A stretch of DNA of 63,524 bases. Origin: Bacteriovoracaceae bacterium. Lineage in GTDB: Bacteria > Bdellovibrionota > Bacteriovoracia > Bacteriovoracales > Bacteriovoracaceae. The notes below the pieces were generated by a model. It made no database searches, was not told where the DNA came from, and saw only the letters and a list, made by a program, of their open reading frames with translations. How positions within the stretch are numbered: position 1 is the stretch's first letter; every line of letters starts with the position of its first letter. A program made the translations under genes and the position numbers. This document shows, piece after piece, positions 26,780 to 56,800 of the stretch. The DNA is taken from assembly GCA_019752535.1 (NCBI GenBank), contig JAIEMA010000046.1, positions 1 to 63,524 on the forward strand. Direction: 5' to 3'.

Positions 26780-27643
26780 TTGAGACTTCATTTTCTTTTT
26801 TTTCTAATATTCATTTCCGCCTGTGCCTCAGATCCTCGACAAGATATTGTTATCGATCAAACACCGATCGAGCTCTCAAAAAAAGAATCCATTACTATAC
26901 GATCTAAGGCGAGAGCGACCTGGTTACAGAGGAATAACAAAGAGAAGCTTCTTGAATCAATTTCTCTTTGGGAGAAACTATCTCGTACCTCAGCTGCTGA
27001 CAAAGAAGTCTTTAGCACTCTTGCTCATGGCTATTTTCATTTAGCTGATGCGTATGAAGATGATATTGAAATAAAGAAAACTCTTTGGGAGAAAGGATTA
27101 GATTTTGGAGATCACGCTCTCTCTTTGAACCCCAAGTTTGCCAACGCCCTTGCTCATGATCTGAAGTATGCCGACGCCTTACAAGAATTAGAAATAGACG
27201 ACATTGACTCGATTTATTGGACTCTCGCTAATTTAGGCAAATGGGTTCATTATTCGGGCTTAATGACTAAGTTTAAATATGAAAAACGAATAAAAAATTT
27301 ATTGAAGACAGTCGAGCGCTTAGATAAGAATTACTTTTATGGTGCCGTCCCTCGCTACTGGGGAGCCTTTTATGCAGGGGCGCCAAGATTTTTTGGAAGA
27401 GATCTTAAAAAATCAGAAGAGTCATTCCTCGAATCAATAAAAATCGCGCCACAATATCTGGGAACAAAAGTTTTGATGGCCGAGGTTTTGTTCATTCGCA
27501 CGAAAGATAAAAAAAGATTTAAGCAAGTATTAGAAGAAGTCGTAGCGACATCAGATAAAATCGACAAGAAACTTGTTGTGGAAAATCAAATGGAGAAAGC
27601 CAAAGCGCAAAAACTCTTGGCGCGAATCAGTGATCTCTTCTAA
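26780..27643 (+). CDS. TatT-type lipoprotein (TRAP-T periplasmic component family)
   Basis: 287 residues starting at TTG. Lipobox ISAC with C15 as the lipid site. The rest is helical TPR-like, with the family hallmark PRYWGAFYAGAPRFFGRDLKKSEESF and IAPQYLGTKVLMAEV. TatT proteins, studied in Treponema, are lipoproteins that work with a TRAP ligand-binding protein TatP. No TatP or TRAP permease gene is in the window, so the partner may be elsewhere. The barrel gene just upstream may be its functional partner. Confidence 0.85.
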   Translation: MRLHFLFFLIFISACASDPRQDIVIDQTPIELSKKESITIRSKARATWLQRNNKEKLLESISLWEKLSRTSAADKEVFSTLAHGYFHLADAYEDDIEIKKTLWEKGLDFGDHALSLNPKFANALAHDLKYADALQELEIDDIDSIYWTLANLGKWVHYSGLMTKFKYEKRIKNLLKTVERLDKNYFYGAVPRYWGAFYAGAPRFFGRDLKKSEESFLESIKIAPQYLGTKVLMAEVLFIRTKDKKRFKQVLEEVVATSDKIDKKLVVENQMEKAKAQKLLARISDLF

Positions 27644-28960: not shown

Positions 28961-30007
28961 ATGACTTCAAAAGATCAAGTTTTCGAGAATATTAAAAAAA
29001 CTGGGCTCTTGGGTCTCATTGGAAATACTCCAATGATTAAAGTCGAAAGTTTGTCGAAATTGACTGGGCGAGACATTTTCATGAAGTGCGAAAACTTCAA
29101 TCCGGGCGGCACGATTAAAGATCGTCCCGCTCTTTATATGGTGGCCAAGGCCATTGCTGACGGAAGACTCAAGCCCGGCATGACCATTGTGGAGGGTACA
29201 GCTGGTAATACGGGAATTGGTCTCGCGATGGTAGGTCAATGCCTAGGTTACAAAGTGATTGTTGTGCTTCCTAAGGGGCAGGACCCATCGAAGCTTAAAA
29301 ATCTGGCTCTCTATGGAGCCGAAATCGTTGAAACAGATGCGGTCATGTATCCCGATGAAAAGCATTTCTTTTTAGTGGGCAAAAAAATTGGCACTAGCTC
29401 TCCTGATTACTGGTGGGCCAATCAATTTGATAATCCAGACAACTGGGGATCTCACTATGAGACGACAGCACCAGAGATGTGGAAGCAGCTGGATGGCAAG
29501 ATTGATCATCTCGTATGCGCCGCTGGATCAAGTGGAACCATCGCGGGCGTCTCTAAATTCTTTAAAGAAAAAAATCCTGCGATAAAAGTCACTCTTGTAG
29601 ACCCACACGGCAGTGGTCTTTGTGCCAATGTTCATAAGAAAACATGGGATGTAGATGGGACCTACACCATGGCCGAAGGAGTGGGCATCACTCGTCCTAC
29701 AGAAAATTGGGCTGCCGCTTCAGTAGATGACGCCTTCACGCTTCCTGACCAAGCTCTCACTAGTCTTGCTTACTGGATTCGTCATAAAGAGGGACTAGTC
29801 ATGGGAATGTCCTCGATGTTGAATTTATCGGGCGCCTTTAGAACGGCCCTCAAATCACCAAAAGGCTCTCGCCTCGTTACCTTTATGTGTGACGGTGGAG
29901 ATCGCGCGACCGGGAAGATGTATAGTTCAGAGTTTTTGAAAGAAAAAAATCTTGATCCAAAAATTCTTAGTGATCAGGAATTAGTGAAGTATTTCGAATC
30001 ACTGTGA
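28961..30007 (+). CDS. cysK: Cysteine synthase, PLP-dependent
   Basis: 348 residues from the ATG at 28961, which has GGAG at the right distance; upstream ATG codons are less suitable. PLP lysine K53 lies in NPGGTIKDRPA, the phosphate-binding loop is GTAGNTGIGLA and later AAGSSGTIAGV. CysK enzymes usually have PSxSVKDR; the PGGTIKDR form is found in a separate branch of cysteine synthase/CBS-like enzymes. It uses O-acetylserine from the divergent CysE plus sulfide. Its end overlaps the end of the convergent membrane gene by nine bases. Confidence 0.9.
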   Translation: MTSKDQVFENIKKTGLLGLIGNTPMIKVESLSKLTGRDIFMKCENFNPGGTIKDRPALYMVAKAIADGRLKPGMTIVEGTAGNTGIGLAMVGQCLGYKVIVVLPKGQDPSKLKNLALYGAEIVETDAVMYPDEKHFFLVGKKIGTSSPDYWWANQFDNPDNWGSHYETTAPEMWKQLDGKIDHLVCAAGSSGTIAGVSKFFKEKNPAIKVTLVDPHGSGLCANVHKKTWDVDGTYTMAEGVGITRPTENWAAASVDDAFTLPDQALTSLAYWIRHKEGLVMGMSSMLNLSGAFRTALKSPKGSRLVTFMCDGGDRATGKMYSSEFLKEKNLDPKILSDQELVKYFESL

Positions 30008-31629
30008 AAGTGCACAAGCCGCATAAAATTCGCGGGCCCTCAAAAAGAGCGGATGCAATGGATCCTTTTCTAGTTTAGGGTTCTTCCTTGCTTGAGAGAG
30101 AGCATTCTCGACAACATTTAAAGCACGTTTCGGCTGACCATTATGAGCAAAATGGGCCGCAAGGCTGAGTTGTGATATTCGATCTGTGGGATGAAAACTT
30201 AATACTCTTTCAAAATACATCTTATCATTCTTAAAGGCAGCCGCATAGTCTACGGTCTGGAAACTCAAAAGAAACCATAAAGAGACGAGAGTGAGAGTTT
30301 GAAAGCGTTTAGGAAGAAGAGAGATGAGCCAAAGTTGTATCATGATAAAAAACGGAAGGACTAAGTAGTAGTGCTGTTCACTGATGTAGGAGTAAGTCAT
30401 ATAAGGAGCAATAATAAAGCCGATGAAAGGGACAAGACCTAGAACGATTGCAACGATAGAAAAAAGAGCAAGCTTAGATTTTTTGAACATTCCAAAAAGG
30501 ATTAGTGCGAGTGCTAGTCCATAACCTAGATAAGCCTTTGCTCCAAGTTTTCCACTAAAGGATCCATGAATTGGTGCAAGTGGGTAAGTGAAAAAAGGTT
30601 TTAAAATATACTCACCAAGAGTTTGAACAATGAGCAAAGCTTGGCTCGTCTTTACGTCTGGCTTCGGCTCTTCGTCTATCGGTTGGACTTCTACGGGAGG
30701 ATTGGTCGTCTCAATATTAGCCGTGACGGCTTCTGTGTCCGCAGGTGGAGTTTCTTGAAGAATTGTTTTTTCATCTTTTGGCGTTGAAGAATCCAAAACA
30801 TTTCCAATTGAATTGGGATCATTATTGTTTTCGAGTTTCTGAAGGGCAATTTTTTCAATATCACTCTCACAAGGACCTTCAAACTCTTCTTCCGGCTTAG
30901 ACATCGGTTCAGGTTCAGGTTCCGCTTCGACAGTTCTTTTTTGATCAACGATTGTTTTTGATTCAGCGACTCTTTCTTGAACCATATCATTGGTATAAAT
31001 GCGCCAGGTAGAAAATAGAGTTATTAATAAAAATGGGAGCAAATAGAGTTGTCTGCTTTGAATTTTTCTTTGTTGATACACAAGAAAGAGAAGAGCGATC
31101 CAGGGGAATGGCAGAACAGATGATTTCGAGAAAACGGAGAGAGTGAAAAGCAAAAAAGAGGCAACGTAGTAGCTTTTCTTTTTTGTTCTCCAGAATCGCA
31201 AACCGGCATGGAGACTTAAGATAAATAAAAAACCACAAAGAACGGTTTTAAATTGAACGATCCAAGCCACACTTAATAGGTTCAGTGGATGGAACCAAAA
31301 CAAAAGCATAACAGGGATGGCCCAGGCCCGTCGAAAATGTCGCACGAAACTTCCCAAAAGATAGCCGTTACTAAATGTAAGAGAAAATTGAGGCTATGCC
31401 AGTAGAAAGTGTTGTCTTTAAAAATGGAATAGAGAAATGCCAAAGAAGAGTCAAAGAGCGGCCATATATGAAAGCGCCAATAAACAGTATGGTCGGGAGT
31501 GTGATTGTAGAAGCGCCAAAATATAAAATGATAATCATCCCAAATCGGCTCACCAAAAAAAGTTTGTCCATAAGCGAAAACGAGGATGAGGATGACAAAA
31601 AAATAAAAAAGGATTTTTATCGCTTTCAT
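29999..31629 (-). pseudogene. Polytopic membrane protein with C-terminal TPR-like tail, frameshifted
   Basis: Two overlapping frames make one protein of about 543 residues. The first (31629 to about 31370) reads MKAIKILFYFFVILILVFAYG, PIWDDYHFIFW and LNFLLHLV. The second (to 29999) continues NGYLLGSF-like into LLFWFHPLNLLSVAWI, then more membrane spans, a glutamate-rich cytoplasmic or periplasmic insert and a C-terminal TPR-like segment (AAHFAHNGQPKRALNVVENAL). The layout is that of GT39-like/O-mannosyltransferase-related TPR membrane proteins. The shift falls near 31366-31372, where one extra A would restore HLVNGYLLGS. The start overlaps the HprK-like gene by four bases. Confidence 0.7.
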
Positions 31630-32636
31630 TTCTTCTCCAAAAATTGGAGAAGTGAGAGGGCATTCTGTTTAGGGGATGTTCCCATTGTGAAGAGATAGTG
31701 AGAACTGTTCTGCCAGAGTCTGATCGCAGACCATACTCTTTTTAGAGCAATGCTAAAGAGTTTGAGCCAATCAGAGGGAGTGCTTCTAATAAAGTATTCC
31801 AAAATCATAGGAAGCCCAATTCCAATGACCATATGTTCACTCAATGCCCTAAAAGTTCTGAGAGCGTCCATTGTAGAGAGATGAGATTCCGGCGAACTCC
31901 ATCTTTGGGCAAGAATGAGAATGGCCTTAGAACTCGGAGTGTTTTCAGCAATAGGAGAAGGCAGTTGATCAAGTGGGATAAGCCACTTATCTGTGAATTG
32001 CTGACGCTTGAAGAGACTGAATTGAGATTTTTTTTCTTCAAGTTCAGATGGCAAATGATCGACTCCAAGCCTTAAGGGGAATGGATGAACTCGTCCATTT
32101 GAATCAATTAAAGGCGTATCATCCGAGATGAGAGAGACCCCAGGCAGCTTTGCGATCTCCAAAAATAATGTTGTTTTGCCCCCTTTAGAAGGGAGCATCA
32201 CTATCACATCCTGAGATCTGTATCTAAATGAGCAGGCATGGACTTTGTGAAAACCACGAGAATCGAGATCCTTTCCAGTGAGGGAGAGAATCATGAGGTA
32301 AGCAATTTCATGAATGAGATCTGAGTCATTTGAATAGATGATTCCTTCATTTTTTCTGTAATCGTAAATACTAAGGGCTTTTCCAAAGTAATCATTCCAT
32401 CTCACTGCTCCATCGTCATAGGTCAGAGAGTTTTGTGAGATTTTATTGGCCGGAATTCTAGGAATAATACCACTGGGAGCAGAGGTGTGATGGAGTGTAA
32501 TGATAAAGTCAGGTTTAGAAATGGAGGGGGTCAGAAAATACTTAAATTCAATTTCAAGCATCTTTAGTGTTGAAGCTTGCTTTGACTGCACACGAATTGT
32601 GCTACCATAAATATTAATATCAACCGTTTGGTCCAT
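31626..32636 (-). CDS. HPr-kinase-like (PEPCK-fold) P-loop kinase
   Basis: 336 residues. GFHKVHACSF (128-137), a P-loop LPSKGGKTTL (148-157) and LISDDTPLID (169-178) follow the order of HprK-related kinases (HAxxV, P-loop, SDD). The typical GxxGxGKS is changed to SKGGKTT. It lacks the N-terminal half of true HprK, so it belongs with HprK-related kinases that occur in peptide-modification or surface-assembly clusters. The substrate is not known. The end overlaps the frameshifted membrane gene. Its start is only three bases from the divergent GT2 start; a later ATG (32561) is a possible alternative. Confidence 0.7.
   Translation of the reverse strand: MDQTVDINIYGSTIRVQSKQASTLKMLEIEFKYFLTPSISKPDFIITLHHTSAPSGIIPRIPANKISQNSLTYDDGAVRWNDYFGKALSIYDYRKNEGIIYSNDSDLIHEIAYLMILSLTGKDLDSRGFHKVHACSFRYRSQDVIVMLPSKGGKTTLFLEIAKLPGVSLISDDTPLIDSNGRVHPFPLRLGVDHLPSELEEKKSQFSLFKRQQFTDKWLIPLDQLPSPIAENTPSSKAILILAQRWSSPESHLSTMDALRTFRALSEHMVIGIGLPMILEYFIRSTPSDWLKLFSIALKRVWSAIRLWQNSSHYLFTMGTSPKQNALSLLQFLEKK
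32582..32611 (+). promoter_or_regulatory. Putative promoter for the GT2 gene inside the opposing kinase gene
   Basis: TTGACT (32582-32587), an 18-base spacer and CATAAA (32606-32611) lie about 29 bases before the GT2 start, in an AT-rich stretch inside the 5' coding part of the HprK-like gene. Confidence 0.35.
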
Positions 32637-32639
32637 AGT

Positions 32640-33614
32640 ATGATCTCTGTTCTTATCATAACCCGAGAGCGCACAGCTCTGCTAAAAAAATGTTTAGCCT
32701 CTCTCTCCACTTGGGGTGAGATACACCCGGTTGAGGTGATTGTTATTCTCAATGGTGAAGACCCTGAGACTGAGAGTTTCCTTACTCAATCTAAAATGCG
32801 CTCTCTTCAGTGGCATAAGACTAAAGAAGTCTTGCTACCAGGGGCCGCGAGAAACTTCGGCATCAATTTTATCAAAGGTGAATGGACCTTTTTAATTGAT
32901 GATGATGCTCGGGTAACGCCTGGGTACCTTGAATATTGGATAAAGCTCGCTCGCGAGTTTCCGCTTGCCCAAGTTATTGGGGGACCTGATTCGCCACCCC
33001 CTGATAGTGATGGAGTGCCAGTGGCGGTCTCAATCGCACTTGCCTCACCACTATGCAGTGGAGCCACTTACAAAAGACATTATCCCGTTGGGCTTAAACC
33101 AGAGAAAACAGATGAAACGACGCTGACATCTTGTAATCTTTGGATCCGCTCACATTGGTGGCATAAAGGAATTAGGTTTCCAGAAAATTATCGCAGAGGC
33201 GAAGAGACGGTACTTTTAAGAGATATTCAAAAAAGAACGGATGAACTCTGGTGGTTTCCAGGCCTTTCAGTTTGGCATGTGAGAAGAAATAATTTTGTCT
33301 CTTTAGCAAAAGCAAGTTGGGGTGGGGGATATTTTAGGGCACGAGTTATCAAGGAGAGTGGTGGAGAGAAGTGGTATTTTCTCGCTCCACTTTTTGTCAT
33401 TCTTCATTTCTCAATCGTTGCGATGCCTCCCTTCTTTGTCTTTCTTGCCTGCTTTTGGTTATTGATAGTGGGCAGTATGTCGATCGCTCTCTCTTACAAA
33501 ATGAAGAGGCTCAAGCTATTTCCAATCGTCATTTTTCTCCATTGGTGGATCCTCTTTAATTATGGATGCGGCTTTTTTCAGTTTCTTACTGAATGGGGGA
33601 GAAACGATGAGTGA
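32640..33614 (+). CDS. Glycosyltransferase family 2 with C-terminal membrane segments
   Basis: 324 residues from the ATG at 32640. GT-A fold: MISVLIITRERTALLKKCL (nucleotide-binding start), the metal-binding acidic patch TFLIDDDARVTPGYLEYW and a later acceptor-binding motif with NYRRGEETVLLRDI. Two hydrophobic helices close the protein (about 240-300: FVILHFSIVAMPPFFVFL and LFPIVIFLHWWILFN). It should transfer a sugar on the cytoplasmic side of the inner membrane. The end overlaps the S26-like start by eight bases, so the two are one operon. Confidence 0.9.
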   Translation: MISVLIITRERTALLKKCLASLSTWGEIHPVEVIVILNGEDPETESFLTQSKMRSLQWHKTKEVLLPGAARNFGINFIKGEWTFLIDDDARVTPGYLEYWIKLAREFPLAQVIGGPDSPPPDSDGVPVAVSIALASPLCSGATYKRHYPVGLKPEKTDETTLTSCNLWIRSHWWHKGIRFPENYRRGEETVLLRDIQKRTDELWWFPGLSVWHVRRNNFVSLAKASWGGGYFRARVIKESGGEKWYFLAPLFVILHFSIVAMPPFFVFLACFWLLIVGSMSIALSYKMKRLKLFPIVIFLHWWILFNYGCGFFQFLTEWGRNDE

Positions 33615-34011
33615 CGCAGGCAAAATGACATGGGAAGAATTTGTTGAAGTAAAAAAATCTCAACCCCTGTTTAAGTTTTCTGTCATTACTGGATCGATGG
33701 TCCCAGTTCTTCAGGTAGGCGAGACTGTGGTTGTTGATGTGGATTCGACAATTGATATTCACGATATCATCGTGTTTTGGCAGGATGGAAAATTAGTCTG
33801 TCATACCGTTTGGCGAAAAAATAGAATCATACGAGATGAAGGTGAAGAGGTTTGGGTCACAAGAGGGATAGCCTCAAACATGATGGACCTCTCCATCAAA
33901 AAAAGTGAAATACTGGGCAAAGTGATCAGCCATAAGCTCCCACTGTGGTGGAAGCTTAAATTAAGATGGAGAGAATTAAAGCTCTTCGGGCAATCTCAAC
34001 CTTTCCACTAA
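33607..34011 (+). CDS. Soluble S24/S26 signal-peptidase-like protein (Ser-His type)
   Basis: 134 residues from the ATG at 33607 with a GGGGGAG site. It resembles the SipW/ER type signal peptidase core: nucleophile loop ITGSMVPVLQVGE with S30, strand VVVDV, DIIVFW, then LVCHTVWR with H66 in place of the usual lysine, and VTRGIASNMMD matching the box E KGDNNxxxD region. There is no N-terminal membrane anchor, unusual for a signal peptidase. Small soluble S24/S26-like proteins occur next to HprK-like kinases in some peptide-modification clusters. It overlaps the GT2 end by eight bases and the convergent unknown gene by 36 bases. Confidence 0.72.
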   Translation: MSDAGKMTWEEFVEVKKSQPLFKFSVITGSMVPVLQVGETVVVDVDSTIDIHDIIVFWQDGKLVCHTVWRKNRIIRDEGEEVWVTRGIASNMMDLSIKKSEILGKVISHKLPLWWKLKLRWRELKLFGQSQPFH

Positions 34012-34932
34012 TAATTCTAAGAGCGCAGGAATAATAGGGTAAGGAAGAGAGGCTTTTTTATTCAATGAAGTTTTCTTGTGAAATAAAAAAGGTGAAAAAT
34101 CAGAATCCTCACATTCTGCAGTGTAGATCGTAAGATTGTGTTTAAAAGACATTGGCCACTCGCCAATTTTCTTTCCCTTGAAGCCCGGATATCTCGTCCG
34201 AGGTTGAGTCTGAGCGGACTGAGAGTAAACTAAATTATCAACTGCACATAAACTCACCCCACCAAAATACAGATCTGTGTTGATGTAAGTGATATCAGTC
34301 TTAGAACACATGGCCTTAAAATCTAAAAACGTGAGTAGTTCAGGTGCATTCTTAAAATAATTTTGAAAAATGGACATAAATTCAAAGGATATTTTCTTAT
34401 CTGTCCAAGTGTGATCAAAAGGTTCGTTTCTAGAAGCGATATAGGCACTCAACGTGGCATCTTTTGGAAAACGCTCAAGCCACTTCGGCATGTGATGCTT
34501 AAAGTGCTGCCAAGATAAACACGTGTCAGAAACCATAGAACAGAAAACAAGTCGCTTCGTTTGTTTAAAGGGTCTTGGATTTTCCATGCGATAGGCTAAC
34601 ACTTTTGCTCTCCAAGCATCGGGAACTAAAAACAAGAGATCTGCTGGAACTAAAAATGTGGCGACATTACCTTTAGGTGAAGGAAATCTTAAAAAGAAAT
34701 CCAGCAACATATGTGCGCCGTCTCTCAGAAGTACAACTTTAAAGTATTCTAAATGCTCTTGAGTTTGAAAAAAACATGAAAACATCGCATTGAGAGGATG
34801 GTAAAAGTCCTCACTCGAAGGCCACATGCGACCTTGCATATCGGTCGGTAGATCTGCATGAAGGGGGTTATCCCATCTGAAGGTAAGAAAGTGACGTGAA
34901 GCTTCGACTTCTTTTTTTAGATTATCTAACAT
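33976..34932 (-). CDS. Unknown 318-residue protein next to glycosyltransferases
   Basis: 318 residues without signal peptide or clear membrane spans. It is rich in aromatic residues and contains several cysteines. I recognise no family. Its start overlaps the GT4 stop by 11 bases, so it is translated with that glycosyltransferase and may act on the same surface sugar. Its 3' end overlaps the convergent S26-like gene by 36 bases. Confidence 0.65.
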   Translation of the reverse strand: MLDNLKKEVEASRHFLTFRWDNPLHADLPTDMQGRMWPSSEDFYHPLNAMFSCFFQTQEHLEYFKVVLLRDGAHMLLDFFLRFPSPKGNVATFLVPADLLFLVPDAWRAKVLAYRMENPRPFKQTKRLVFCSMVSDTCLSWQHFKHHMPKWLERFPKDATLSAYIASRNEPFDHTWTDKKISFEFMSIFQNYFKNAPELLTFLDFKAMCSKTDITYINTDLYFGGVSLCAVDNLVYSQSAQTQPRTRYPGFKGKKIGEWPMSFKHNLTIYTAECEDSDFSPFLFHKKTSLNKKASLPYPIIPALLELLVERLRLPEEL

Positions 34933-36208
34933 AGTGACGATAGACCTGCATGTAGAGTTTGTTGAAGGTGTGCTTCTTCATATCCGTGAAGGTATTAGAG
35001 CGATTATAAAGTTCAGATTCAGCTGCTTTATGAAGAGTTTCAGTGAATCCTTTAAATGGAGTAAGATTCTTTAATCCAGCTTTAACGATTTGTGCTGCGT
35101 TTTCGATACCAGTCCATTTAAGAGAGTTTTTTTGAATAAGACTGCGATTAAAGCCTTTCGCATTCTCGTACATAAAACTTAATTCTTTCTCGAGTGATTT
35201 GATATGAATGAGTTTTCCCTTAGGCGCAATTTTGACGGGCACTAACTTAATGGCCTCTTCTAGTCCCGGTTGAACAAAGCCTTCAAAGCCTGCCCAGTCA
35301 GTAAGAATCAGCGGGAGCCCACAGGCCAGTGCCTCTGCACAACTCATTCCATAGTCTTCATCATTATGAACACTAATGTTCACTAAACAGTCTGCAGCAT
35401 TATAGTAAGCAGTTAATTCTTTATTGGGTCTGAAACCATGGAACTCAAAATATTTTTTTTCTTCATCTGGTAGTTTATTTAAAACTTTTTGCAGGCGATG
35501 GAAGTATTCGCCTTCATATTCGCCTTTAAACAACCAAGGTTCACCAATCTTATCTGTGTCACCTACAAAAACCATCTTGGCATTGGCTTTGGTTTCATTT
35601 CTCCACTTCGCAAATGCGGGGATGAGTTGATGAATCCTCTTCTGTTGAGAGAGGCGACCAGTGAAAATGAAGATGACTTCTTTGTCGCTCCATCCATAGC
35701 TCTTGCGAGCCGCTAGGCGAATTTTTTCATCGAATCCGAATTCGCTGTCATCAACAGGGAAGGGGCAAATAGCGAGTTGATCTTCAGGGATAAACTCAGT
35801 CAACATCGCCTTTTGTCTTCGGCTGGCTGCATACCAAAGAGTCTTTTTATCTTTCATCATCTTCTCAAAAACTTTCCAGTGCTTGAAAGTAAGGGTGAAG
35901 TCTCCATAGAGATGGAAGATATAATCTGGGGTATGGCCCATTTCCTCAAATTCATTGCCCAACCACTGCATGATATAAATGGGATGGGGCTTGTGATCAA
36001 GAAAGATAACGACATCTGGCTTAGAGTCTCGAGCTTTTCTCGCGCTCTCATAATACTCAGTATCTTCAAGATATTCAGAGTAATGAATGGGGATTATTTC
36101 AATGTCTTTGGCGTTCACTTCATACGCCTTGATCAGATTTGAGACAATCTTTTGGCAACTAACCCAAGCCGAAGGTTTAAAAGAATAAATAATACACACT
36201 TTAAGCAT
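34922..36208 (-). CDS. Glycosyltransferase family 4 (GT-B fold)
   Basis: 428 residues from the ATG at 36208, where family similarity begins (MLKVCIIYSFKPSAWVSCQ); a longer frame to 36259 is less likely. GT-B C-terminal motifs: IFIFTGRLSQQKRIHQLIPAF, FHGFRPNKELTAYYNAADCLVN and DYGMSCAEALACGLPLILT, the EX7E-type donor site. It transfers a sugar from a nucleotide donor, likely in surface polysaccharide or glycolipid synthesis. It is followed by the unknown 318-residue gene. Confidence 0.9.
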   Translation of the reverse strand: MLKVCIIYSFKPSAWVSCQKIVSNLIKAYEVNAKDIEIIPIHYSEYLEDTEYYESARKARDSKPDVVIFLDHKPHPIYIMQWLGNEFEEMGHTPDYIFHLYGDFTLTFKHWKVFEKMMKDKKTLWYAASRRQKAMLTEFIPEDQLAICPFPVDDSEFGFDEKIRLAARKSYGWSDKEVIFIFTGRLSQQKRIHQLIPAFAKWRNETKANAKMVFVGDTDKIGEPWLFKGEYEGEYFHRLQKVLNKLPDEEKKYFEFHGFRPNKELTAYYNAADCLVNISVHNDEDYGMSCAEALACGLPLILTDWAGFEGFVQPGLEEAIKLVPVKIAPKGKLIHIKSLEKELSFMYENAKGFNRSLIQKNSLKWTGIENAAQIVKAGLKNLTPFKGFTETLHKAAESELYNRSNTFTDMKKHTFNKLYMQVYRHYVR

Positions 36209-36312
36209 GAGACTATTAGAAAACGCAAACATGAGTTGGACAACTAAAAAAACACACAAAGAGCAATAGTCGGGTAATAGTAATCCTCATTCCGTCATGG
36301 CAGCATGTGATC

Positions 36313-52347: not shown

Positions 52348-53814
52348 ATGTATTTACTTCTTTTTGCTCTCTCTCTCACTGCTCAAGCTCAAGCGCCACT
52401 CTCTCTCTCAGAGAAGTCGCTCTCAGAGCTTTCTTTGAATACTTCTCCTCGCTGGGATTCTATTGAAGCGGCATTTTTGGATGCGAAAAATCAAACTCAG
52501 CAGCTTAATGATAAGTTTCGTCCTGAGATCTTTTCAGAAGCTCAATATTTAGAAACACGCGAAAAGGCGATTATTCAATTTCAGCCTATTTGGTCTCCGC
52601 TTAAGACTGCTCAATTGGGAGTGAGACAGAATTTTAGAGGAGGAGTTGGATTAAGCGCAGCCATGGGAATGGATCAAAGAAGTGCGACCACTCAGAGCGG
52701 AAAATTCGATAACGTCACTACTAATGTTCTGCGCTTAGATTTGACCGTCGATTTATGGAAGGATTTATTTGGTCGAATTAGCAAGGCTCAATCTAAATCG
52801 GCTGAGTTCTCTCAAGAGAGAGCGAACTTAGAGAAAGAGATTCAACAAAAAGCCTTTCTTCTTACTTTGCGAAGAACCTATTGGTCACTTGTGGCCAACA
52901 ATGAACAGATCCAAGTCTATGAAGGCTTAAAAAAAATCAGTGAGCAGCAAGTGGCTGACGCGAAAAGAAGACGCGGGGCCGGAGTTACTGATGATGGTGA
53001 AGTGGCAAGATATGAAGCTCAGGTGGCTTCAAGACAAGGCTCAGTCCTTTATTATCAATACCAAAGAGAAATTCTTCTGAAGCAACTTAAAACACTTCTG
53101 CCCGATTTGCAGGGAAGAGATGTCACTCTTGCCGAGTATAATGTTCCCAAAATGATTCAAACCGTTCTCGCCTGTACTGCGGTGATCGCCTCCCATCAAA
53201 AAGTTCCCTATGAGTTTACTAAATATGATGAGGTCATAGGCCTTCTTAAAAAAACGCAAGGTGAGCAAGCCAAACTTGCTTCATCTTATGATGATGTGAA
53301 TCTGAAGTTCATCGCTTCCGTTCAGGAAAAGGGTGTTGCAAGTCAGAGCAATGGAAACAATGTGAATAGTGGCTCTTATGGCGCGGCAGTCGATGACTGG
53401 AGAAATAACAATAGAACTGGATACTCGGCCGGTCTGCAGTTAGTTGTTCCTCTGGGGAAGGGTGATACTCGTAGCACTCAGGAGTTATTGGCCAAGAAAA
53501 AGTATGATGCCCAAATCAATCAGAATGAGGCCGATATTGAATCAACTCATAACCAATTGGTTAGAGTGATTGGTATTTTAACAAGTGTTGTAAAATCACA
53601 AAAAGAAAATACAGCGGCCCTTGAAAGAAGACTTAAAGTTCAAAACAGAAAATTCTTAGAAGCAAGAGTCTCGGTGAATGATCTGATCTTAGATCAAGAT
53701 GCCCTTTTAAACTCAAATCTCACGACAATTAATACTCAACTCGAAATTATCAATACTATCTTTGATTATCTTTCCGTCTTTACCGAAACTCCTTGTGAGT
53801 TCAATAGGATTTAA
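52348..53814 (+). CDS. TolC-like outer-membrane efflux protein
   Basis: 488 residues from the second ATG (52348), which has AAGGA at eight bases; an ATG at 52339 overlaps that box. Signal peptide MYLLLFALSLTAQAQ. Long alpha-helical hairpins with alternating coil regions (QQKAFLLTLRRTYWSLVANNEQIQVYEGL in pieces, RRLKVQNRKFLEARVSVNDLILDQDAL) match the OEP repeat of TolC. It forms the outer-membrane channel for the RND pump encoded next. Confidence 0.87.
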   Translation: MYLLLFALSLTAQAQAPLSLSEKSLSELSLNTSPRWDSIEAAFLDAKNQTQQLNDKFRPEIFSEAQYLETREKAIIQFQPIWSPLKTAQLGVRQNFRGGVGLSAAMGMDQRSATTQSGKFDNVTTNVLRLDLTVDLWKDLFGRISKAQSKSAEFSQERANLEKEIQQKAFLLTLRRTYWSLVANNEQIQVYEGLKKISEQQVADAKRRRGAGVTDDGEVARYEAQVASRQGSVLYYQYQREILLKQLKTLLPDLQGRDVTLAEYNVPKMIQTVLACTAVIASHQKVPYEFTKYDEVIGLLKKTQGEQAKLASSYDDVNLKFIASVQEKGVASQSNGNNVNSGSYGAAVDDWRNNNRTGYSAGLQLVVPLGKGDTRSTQELLAKKKYDAQINQNEADIESTHNQLVRVIGILTSVVKSQKENTAALERRLKVQNRKFLEARVSVNDLILDQDALLNSNLTTINTQLEIINTIFDYLSVFTETPCEFNRI

Positions 53815-53815
53815 T

Positions 53816-56800
53816 ATGAAAAATATCGCCGATTTTTTCATCAGAAATTATAAACTCACTCTAGTCCTTATGGGCTTTATGTTGGTCATAGGTCTGCAAG
53901 GGATTCGACGCATGAATGCCGAATCTTGGCCTGCTGTGGATTTTGCTATCGCCACGATTACAACTCAATATAAAGGGGCTTCACCTGAAGATATTGAAGC
54001 ACTTATTACAAAACCGATTGAAGATGAAATTAGAACTGTTTCGGGTTTAAAAGATGTCAAATCCATCTCGCAGATTGGTCAAAGTCAGATCATCGTCCGT
54101 GTCGATATGGATAATGTCGATGAAGTGAAAGTCATGGATGATTTGCAAAAAGCTGTTCAACGCGTATCGAAGCTTCCAGCAGATCTTGAACAGCAACCAG
54201 ATTTTAAAGAGATTAAAAGTGCTGAGTTCCCGGCAATTGAAATTGCAGTCGTCGGAAATGGAGATAATCGCCTAAGAGATAAAATCGCTGATTCTCTAAA
54301 AGAAGAAGTGGAAGATATTTTTGCAGTAAAAGATGTGCGACCTACGGGGTATAGAGAAAGAGAGTTCACCGTTGAACTTGATATGGCCAAAATGAAGCAA
54401 ATGAACATCGGCGTGGCCGAAGTTCTCTCAAAAGCTCAATCTCGCAATATATCCACTCCCGGTGGAGACATGAAAGATGCCAACACCAAAAGGCTCGTTC
54501 GATTAGATGCTAAAGTAAAAACAGCCGAGGAATTAGGCGATCTCGTTATCCGTTCAAACTTTGCCGGTCAAATTGTGCGTTTGAAAGATGTCGCTAACGC
54601 GATCGATGGGGCTAAGGAGCCTAGAACGCTGGCCACTTGGAATGGAAAGGATGCCGTTCTCCTTATTGTAAATAAAAAAGCCGGCGCCGATACGATCAAG
54701 CTTGCTGATAAAGTTTTTGAGGTCGTTGAGAGATATAAGAAAACTTATGAAGGCAGTGTTGAGTTTAAAGTCTATAATAATGAAGCCAAGAAAGTGAGAG
54801 CGAAGCTTGATACTTTAACCTCCAACGCCGTTTCGGGTCTGATTGTCGTTGTCGTTTTCCTATTAATCTTTATTCCTGGTTGGGTAGGGATCATGGCTTC
54901 AATGTCACTTCCACTGGCCATCCTAACGACTCTTGGTGTGATGCCACTTTTCGGATTAAATCTTGATTCAATCACTATTCTCGCTTTGATTATTTCAATG
55001 GGCATGCTTGTGGATAACTCTATCGTTATCACTGATAACTTTGTGGCACTCAGACGTGAGGGCATGGCGACTCATGAAGCTCTTGTTAAATCGGTGACTG
55101 ATCTCTGGGCCCCAATCACTGCGACCGCTTTTACAACGATTGCGGCGTTTCTTCCGATGCTCGTGACTAAAGGGATCATGGGAAAATTCATTATGGCCAT
55201 ACCGATTGTGGTCACGATCTCTCTTTTGATCTCTCTACTTGAGTCATTCTTCTTTCTTCCTATGCGTCTGTCATTTGTAGGCAATCGTGTCAAAAAATTG
55301 GATGCAGGTGGAAAAGATTGGTTTATTCCCTATCGTCTCAAATTTGAAAACTTGATGCGTTTAGTGATTAAGCGCCGCTATCTGACTGTCGGTGCGATGT
55401 TAGCTTTAATTGTGGGATCGATGATTCTCAATAAAGTAGGAAATAAATTTATATTATTCCCAGCTGAACAGACTGAAATTTATATGGCCCGCATGCAAAC
55501 ACCGGTGGGAACTCCAAAAGAGAAGACCAAAGAGCTGACAGCTGAGTTAAGTCGAAAAATTCTCGAAGTCATGGGTGAAGACGTGCGTGAAGTCGTGGCC
55601 CGTGCCGGAACGACGAAAGGGCGTCCGGATGATGCCAAAGGTGGCGAAGGTGATAACCAAGGGATGGTCACTATTTACGCATCTGATAATGCTAAATTCA
55701 ATATTCCTTATACCGTTTTCTTAAAAAAACTCAGAGATAATATTGATACAACAAAGTATGGAAGTGTGGTTTTTGAAGAACTCGTCAATGGCCCACCAGT
55801 TGGAGCTGCCGTTTCAGCAACTTTTAGATCCAACAATGCGCAGAAAAACCAAGAAGTCATTGATTTGGTCATCAAAGAACTTGGGGCCACTCCTGGTATT
55901 CTTGATTTGAAAATTGAAGACGTCGTGGATTCGGATGAAGTGCTGGTAAGAGTAGATTATCCCCTTGCTGATCGTTTAGGAATAAATGTGGCCGACATTG
56001 GCACGACAATCCGTACAGCGATGGGGGGATTACTTGTGTCTGATGTGACGTTAGATAATAAGGAAGTAAAATTAAATGTGAAGTTTCGCGATATGGATCG
56101 CCAAAACTATCAAGATTTAAATCTTATTCCTGTGATGGATAAACAAGGGAACTTAGTTCCACTTTCAAAAGTCGCAAGCTTTGATACTAAGCCAGGGACA
56201 CCTCAAATTAAGCGCTACGATTACAAAAGAGCTCGCACAATTACTGCAAGTGTAGACGGTGTGAAGATGACCTCACCTAAGGCCAATGCCATTTTAAAAG
56301 CGAAGTGGCAGGAGCTCCAATTAAAGTATCCAGAAGTTTCCCTTATTCAAGGGGGAGAAAACGAAAGCACCGCAGAGTCATTACAGTCACTCTTCGATGC
56401 CATGATTCTTGCACTCATTGGTATTTTTGCCTTGATGGTTTTCATGTTTAGATCATTCCTCATGCCATTTGTGATCATGATGACAATTCCATTGGGACTC
56501 ATCGGCTTCTCCGTTTCCTTCTTCTTTCATCAAAGACCCATCAGCTTCATGGCCTTGATTGGTATCATTGGTTTGGGTGGAATTATCGTGAACTCTGGTA
56601 TTGTATTAGTGGACTTTATCAATTCAATGAGAAAAGAAGGGAAGCTTCCGCTAGAAGAAATTCTTGTTCAAGCCTCTGGTCAACGTGTGCGTGCCGTTAT
56701 TACGACGTCCCTCACCACTATGGCAGGGTTGTTTCCAACGGCCTATGGAATTGGCGGAGCTGATTCCATGCTGATTCCTATGACTATGGCGATGGCCTGG

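Follow-up and report, generated by a model that had tools for sequence, protein, structure and literature searches.

A six-gene block encoding an HprK/PEPCK-like kinase and glycosyltransferases, co-inherited with a Wzm/Wzt-type exporter in Bdellovibrionota

Gene content of the block

The window analysed here, 63,524 nucleotides from a Bacteriovoracaceae bacterium, is the whole of contig C21 (JAIEMA010000046.1) within a 3.49 Mb draft genome. Its positions 29999-36208 hold six genes, each found where the original prediction had placed it and in the orientation given there:

29999..31629, minus strand: GT-C glycosyltransferase-like membrane protein with C-terminal TPR (TMTC-like), putative; frameshifted (two ORFs as against intact homologues)
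31626..32636, minus strand: HprK/PEPCK-superfamily P-loop kinase-like protein, 336 aa (AlphaFold2 fold, conserved motifs)
32640..33614, plus strand: family 2 glycosyltransferase (GT2) with a hydrophobic C-terminal segment (Glycos_transf_2, E 3.9e-12)
33607..34011, plus strand: soluble S26-like (Sec11/SipW type) Ser-His protein, 134 aa from the ATG at 33607 (TIGR02228, 8.8e-12)
33976..34932, minus strand: family F3 protein beside GT4, weak GT-B-like fold (no Pfam family)
34922..36208, minus strand: family 4 glycosyltransferase (GT4; Glycos_transf_1, E 5.5e-22)

The GT4 gene may start at the ATG at 36208 or, in the ORF list, at a TTG upstream at 36259. The ORF coordinates leave nearly no intergenic DNA across the block, as had been remarked from the sequence. 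The kinase and GT2 genes diverge from start codons at 32636 and 32640, only 3 nt apart, so that the promoter and ribosome site of each would lie inside the coding sequence of the other. The S26-like and F3 genes are convergent and overlap, and the GT4 and F3 genes overlap by 11 bp. In several other genera the kinase/GT2 gap is ∼50 bp, compared to the 3 nt seen here (window 32634-32642).

Pfam and NCBIfam matches are firm for GT2 and GT4 and clear for the S26-like protein, and neither collection assigned a family to the kinase, F3 or the membrane protein. PADLOC returned no match among the six block proteins tested, on which ground a defence system was ruled out. Outside the block, the window carries a lone TAtT (TRAP transporter T-component) gene at 26780-27643; in the relative locus L016, TRAP transporter genes (L016 14646-17374) adjoin the TAtT copy, an arrangement absent from the window.

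Folds and motifs of the encoded proteins

The AlphaFold2 model of the kinase (pLDDT 90.7) matches ATP-PEPCK (1j3b) in VIA with Z 17.2 and rmsd 4.2 Å over 285 aligned residues. In Foldseek, PEPCK comes first (E 4e-10) and HprK/P second (probability 0.97-0.99). By this model, the protein is predicted to have the PEPCK/HprK catalytic-core fold over its full length. The relationship was revealed by the fold search; the kinase sequence profile gave chance matches only against the PDB, with none to HprK or PEPCK. Among 14 members of the family, G153, K154, S171, D172 and H133 are invariant, the P-loop GK is followed by Ser or Thr in every row, and D173 is kept in at least 90%. Weak matches to HprK-related kinase A or B occur in 7 of the 14 members (best E 7.8e-6). 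The window kinase scores 11 bits (E 0.15) against HprK-related kinase B, and the kinase of locus L109 reaches 34 bits (E 1.3e-8), in both cases against a cut-off of 200. All scores for HprK-related kinase A (TIGR04352) and B (TIGR04355) are far under the curated cut-offs for membership. The fold, the conserved P-loop and Asp, and these weak matches together bear out the assignment as an HprK-like kinase made from the sequence alone.

A homologue of the HprK family might be a regulator, that is, an HprK-like protein Ser kinase that would sense metabolism and switch a capsule or LPS pathway, and in many genera the kinase does stand with GT2 alone, at a site apart from the rest of the set. This is very unlikely in our estimation, given that the kinase structure resembles the PEPCK catalytic core more closely than it does HprK/P, that no sensor domain was seen in the kinase, and that no HPr, PtsN or transcription factor gene adjoins it in the window.

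For the S26-like protein, the best PDB match of the family profile is Sec11, and Ser45, Met46, Pro48 and His81 are invariant in 12 of 12 members. Together with the TIGR02228 match, this invariant Ser-His pair upholds the S26-like assignment. A transmembrane or hydrophobic segment was found in 0/12 members, and action as a signal peptidase is therefore unlikely. GT2, by comparison, has its hydrophobic segment at residues 259-277.

The F3 model (pLDDT 79) draws Foldseek and VIA lists dominated by GT-B enzymes, all below a reliable level: the best VIA match is SenB (Z 6.8) in a list with no clear fold match, the Foldseek TM is 0.37, and the F3 sequence has no match in the PDB. F3 adjoins GT4 in those F3 loci of the class that were inspected. 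From the model, it is plausible that F3 and GT4 form a GT-B pair, one partner of which may be non-catalytic.

The membrane protein had been described as polytopic with TPR repeats, and so it is; the gene, for its part, is not intact, a split that had been overlooked together with the protein's GT-C nature. Two ORFs, 31282-31629 and 29999-31357, correspond to the two halves of intact homologues, which in the same genus are single ORFs of 517-522 aa. The first ∼92 codons (31629 to about 31360) lie in one frame and the remainder, to 29999, in another, with the frameshift site at about 31340-31400, more narrowly about 31350 to 31390; either a mutation of recent date or a fault in the assembly would account for it. 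An Asp-Asp after TM1 (D31 D32), WP, HP and a Lys are conserved in 13 homologues, and there are weak PMT_2 and TPR matches. Judged by sequence, we take the protein to be a putative TMTC-like GT-C enzyme. As to the TMTC motifs KE(T/Q)xxT and ERxxY, the 13 members keep the Lys and not the Glu or the Arg. No DUF1736 match was found among them, and the family profile retrieved TPR proteins only among the PDB matches listed. The GT-C family is also found in genomes without the kinase.

Conservation and linkage to an exporter

Within the window's genus (g1), three other genomes have the same genes in the same order as far as their contigs extend, with cysteine synthase on one side and, where the contig reaches, a GDSL esterase and LolD-like ABC genes on the other. 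The six-gene block and its flanks recur in genus g24 (about ten genomes) and in one further genus, at loci L072-L078, L080 and L081; the GT-C gene is missing in L072, and the S26 gene in L078 and L080. In all 13 genomes checked, 960-1014 bp separate the kinase from S26. This arrangement is far from chance, the gene order being identical in other genera, and since order, flanks and kinase-S26 spacing are all kept, at least two genera probably inherited the block from a common ancestor. The genes proposed to form a cluster are hence not scattered in close relatives (g1 and g24).

Genus g24 also shows additions. An NAD-dependent-epimerase-like gene, so judged by eye, lies behind the GT-C gene (L073 11017-11718, L074 4756-5490, L075 2885-3622) and is missing in the window's genus. 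Another gene, which starts the operon beside GT4 and is not found in the window, encodes a short exported coiled-coil protein of 79-120 aa (L074 11498-11755 and its equivalents in L072-L081). The corresponding ∼80-aa ORF between GT4 and the next operon was considered as a precursor peptide and rejected, as it encodes this exported coiled-coil protein instead, is co-directional with the next operon, and is absent from the window.

In other genera the block is broken up, often over two or three loci. One locus retains the kinase and GT2 side by side; the second holds GT4 and F3, as a rule accompanied by the S26-like gene, Wzm and Wzt, and often adds a further GT2, twitch or SPASM radical SAM enzymes and a NodU-like carbamoyltransferase. 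Across 129 genomes of the class, the kinase was found in 69, F3 in 61, S26 in 57 and the specific Wzm in 67, with all four present in 53 genomes and none in 56. Of the 48 genera, 20 contain the full set of four, 26 contain none of them and 2 are mixed. Genus-level Fisher tests of co-occurrence among the four give p values of 3e-11 to 4e-14, which overstate independence because the genomes share ancestry; for a TRAP permease orthologue, taken from the neighbourhood as a control, there is no association (p 0.23). In genera g3, g7 and g12, near-complete genomes without one of the four are without all of them, so that gains or losses appear concerted rather than the product of one old split. One genome of g7 (G090, 81% complete) has the other three and no kinase.

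Wzm/Wzt proteins and glycosyltransferases belong to common families, and the link depends on a specific subfamily at a strict threshold. Physical linkage was observed as well: in 33 genomes no more than 1 kb separates S26 from Wzm, and in G029 the genes for HprK, Wzm, Wzt and S26 are adjacent. The best NCBIfam relatives of the pair are galactan Wzm/Wzt, TagH and KpsM. What is co-inherited across genera is a dedicated ABC-2 permease and ATPase of the polysaccharide-export class. The window's own genome has the matching pair at G000:C12, ∼53,090-54,630, unlinked to the block. The cluster as first delimited is real and at the same time too narrow, a partner exporter elsewhere in the genome having been overlooked. 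An apparent 'Wzt' near the kinase in window-type loci proved to be the flanking LolD-like ABC gene, a cross-match that was left out of the counts. One glycan locus, L063, also has a gene (L063 6891-7340) whose small product carries a Peptidase S74 (endosialidase chaperone) domain.

A phylum-wide sample added 24 kinase-bearing genomes from outside the class. In 20 out-of-class loci the kinase stands with GT2, GT4, F3, S26, Wzm/Wzt, GT-C, radical SAM and carbamoyltransferase genes in varying combinations; L109 offers a compact set (HprK-S26-amidohydrolase-Wzm-Wzt-GT2-GT4-carbamoyltransferase). Of the 47 kinase loci collected, 37 have GT2 directly beside the kinase, and in 24 of those 37 the two genes diverge. 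At L028 4109-6160, a GT2 is fused to a C-terminal domain of ∼350 aa, nucleotidyltransferase-like by eye, and this fusion gene adjoins the kinase and Wzm/Wzt.

These loci also bear on a RiPP-like peptide system, in which, by analogy, a small peptide would receive a phosphate from the kinase and sugars from the glycosyltransferases, with cleavage by the S26-like protein and export through the ABC transporter. Of the named families, those nearest to the kinase are HprK-related kinase A/B, and lasso clusters bring together HPr-kinase, PqqD and nucleotidyltransferase genes, their HPr-kinase-like tailoring kinase phosphorylating the C-terminal Ser (PMC7533575). L101 and L104 have PqqD-like genes at most 4 kb away from the kinase, and SPASM radical SAM enzymes occur in some loci. 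We nonetheless judge such a system unlikely, as the exporter is of the polysaccharide class and glycosyltransferases prevail in the set. The window, moreover, is without a precursor, PqqD or B1/B2/C lasso enzymes; the original prediction had itself found neither precursor nor PqqD there. With 33 intergenic ORFs of 60-140 aa scanned, just 2 kinase loci out of 47 had PqqD, both outside the class; neither a precursor-like ORF nor PqqD was found in the window block or near the kinase in the class.

Proposed function and comparison with known systems

Taken together, the block is probably the biosynthetic core of a conserved Bdellovibrionota surface glycoconjugate system with dedicated Wzm/Wzt-type ABC export. 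Modification or export of a surface peptide or glycan had been suggested; the glycan half of that suggestion is the one best sustained, while peptide modification finds no support as the leading interpretation: no precursor turned up, PqqD is rare (2/47 kinase loci) and the exporter is of the polysaccharide type. Gene order, folds, motifs, co-inheritance and linkage are direct observations. What follows on the chemistry and on the nature of the product is our inference throughout; our confidence is moderate as to the general type of function and low for any single step. GT2 and the GT4/F3 pair would assemble a glycan at the cytoplasmic face of the inner membrane, using a carrier or acceptor, and the HprK/PEPCK-like kinase would phosphorylate the glycan or the acceptor to provide a primer, linker or cap. 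Before export, the S26-like Ser-His protein of the cytosol may cleave or proof-read a partner, Wzm/Wzt would export the product, and the TMTC-like GT-C enzyme may add sugars from polyprenyl phosphate on the periplasmic side. Among the points against the glycoconjugate reading, the kinase could regulate the glycan rather than modify it, and the GT-C gene is broken in the assembly, missing in L072 and present elsewhere without the kinase.

A more specific version of the route is possible but doubtful. In it, the target of the kinase would be an acceptor, either a sugar or a Ser in a small protein, and the glycosyltransferases would extend from the phosphate placed there, giving an ABC-exported phosphoglycan or phosphoglycopeptide that a cytosolic S26-like enzyme releases, by a route undescribed before.

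Alternatively, the TMTC-like GT-C enzyme could be a protein glycosyltransferase acting on prepilin-like (type IV pilin-like) surface proteins. TMTCs are O-mannosyltransferases (PMC7801869) and the GT-C family keeps the DD motif; prepilin-type (N_methyl) proteins are encoded near the set in L024, L026, L057, L059, L071, L079, L095 and L097. We hold this to be quite unlikely, for the block contains no prepilin gene in the window or in genera g1 and g24, and protein O-glycosylation by a GT-C enzyme needs no Wzm/Wzt exporter. Prepilin-type genes were located at L024 11692-13880, L026 15626-17545, L057 5899-8118, L059 2311-4725, L079 2593-4386, and L095 8166 and 12439, several of all those listed being very large. 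Prepilin-like proteins near glycan loci could serve as acceptors.

Several orphan families (the Pfam-less PEPCK-like kinase, F3, the soluble S26-like protein and the bacterial TMTC-like GT-C enzyme) are here tied to one co-inherited exporter, a shared link that gives each of them a testable role. The hosts belong to a lineage of predatory bacteria, in which attachment to prey, sensitivity to phages and self-protection all involve molecules of the cell surface. Should the kinase act in an exported glycan pathway, the HprK-related kinases of peptide clusters would be connected to glycan biology.

The cluster had been put forward as undescribed, and we found no matching description of the set in the open-licence literature on HprK-like kinases with Wzm/Wzt, PqqD or Bacteriovorax glycans, an absence that is weak evidence. 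Among known systems, HprK-related kinases A/B and the HPr-kinase-like tailoring kinases of lasso peptides share the fold superfamily and weak profile matches with our kinase, whereas the set differs from theirs in that its scores stay far below cut-off and that, in the class, neither a precursor nor a PqqD partner was found. The S26-like protein has the same Ser-His catalytic pair and surrounding sequence as the SipW and Sec11 signal peptidases (S26B), for which a membrane anchor is expected; none is present in 12/12 of the proteins here. With the TMTC and PMT GT-C mannosyltransferases, the membrane protein shares its polytopic build, the Asp-Asp after TM1, an invariant Lys and C-terminal TPR, but it is without the Glu of KE(T/Q)xxT, the Arg of ERxxY and DUF1736, and its TPR stretch is short. 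Wzm/Wzt export of O-antigen, galactan and teichoic acid has in common with the present set the Wzm/Wzt type, GT2 and GT4 and, in many loci, a carbamoyltransferase. Unlike those systems, the set described here is often dispersed over two or three loci, and it adds a PEPCK/HprK-like kinase, a soluble S26-like protein, F3 and a TMTC-like GT-C enzyme.
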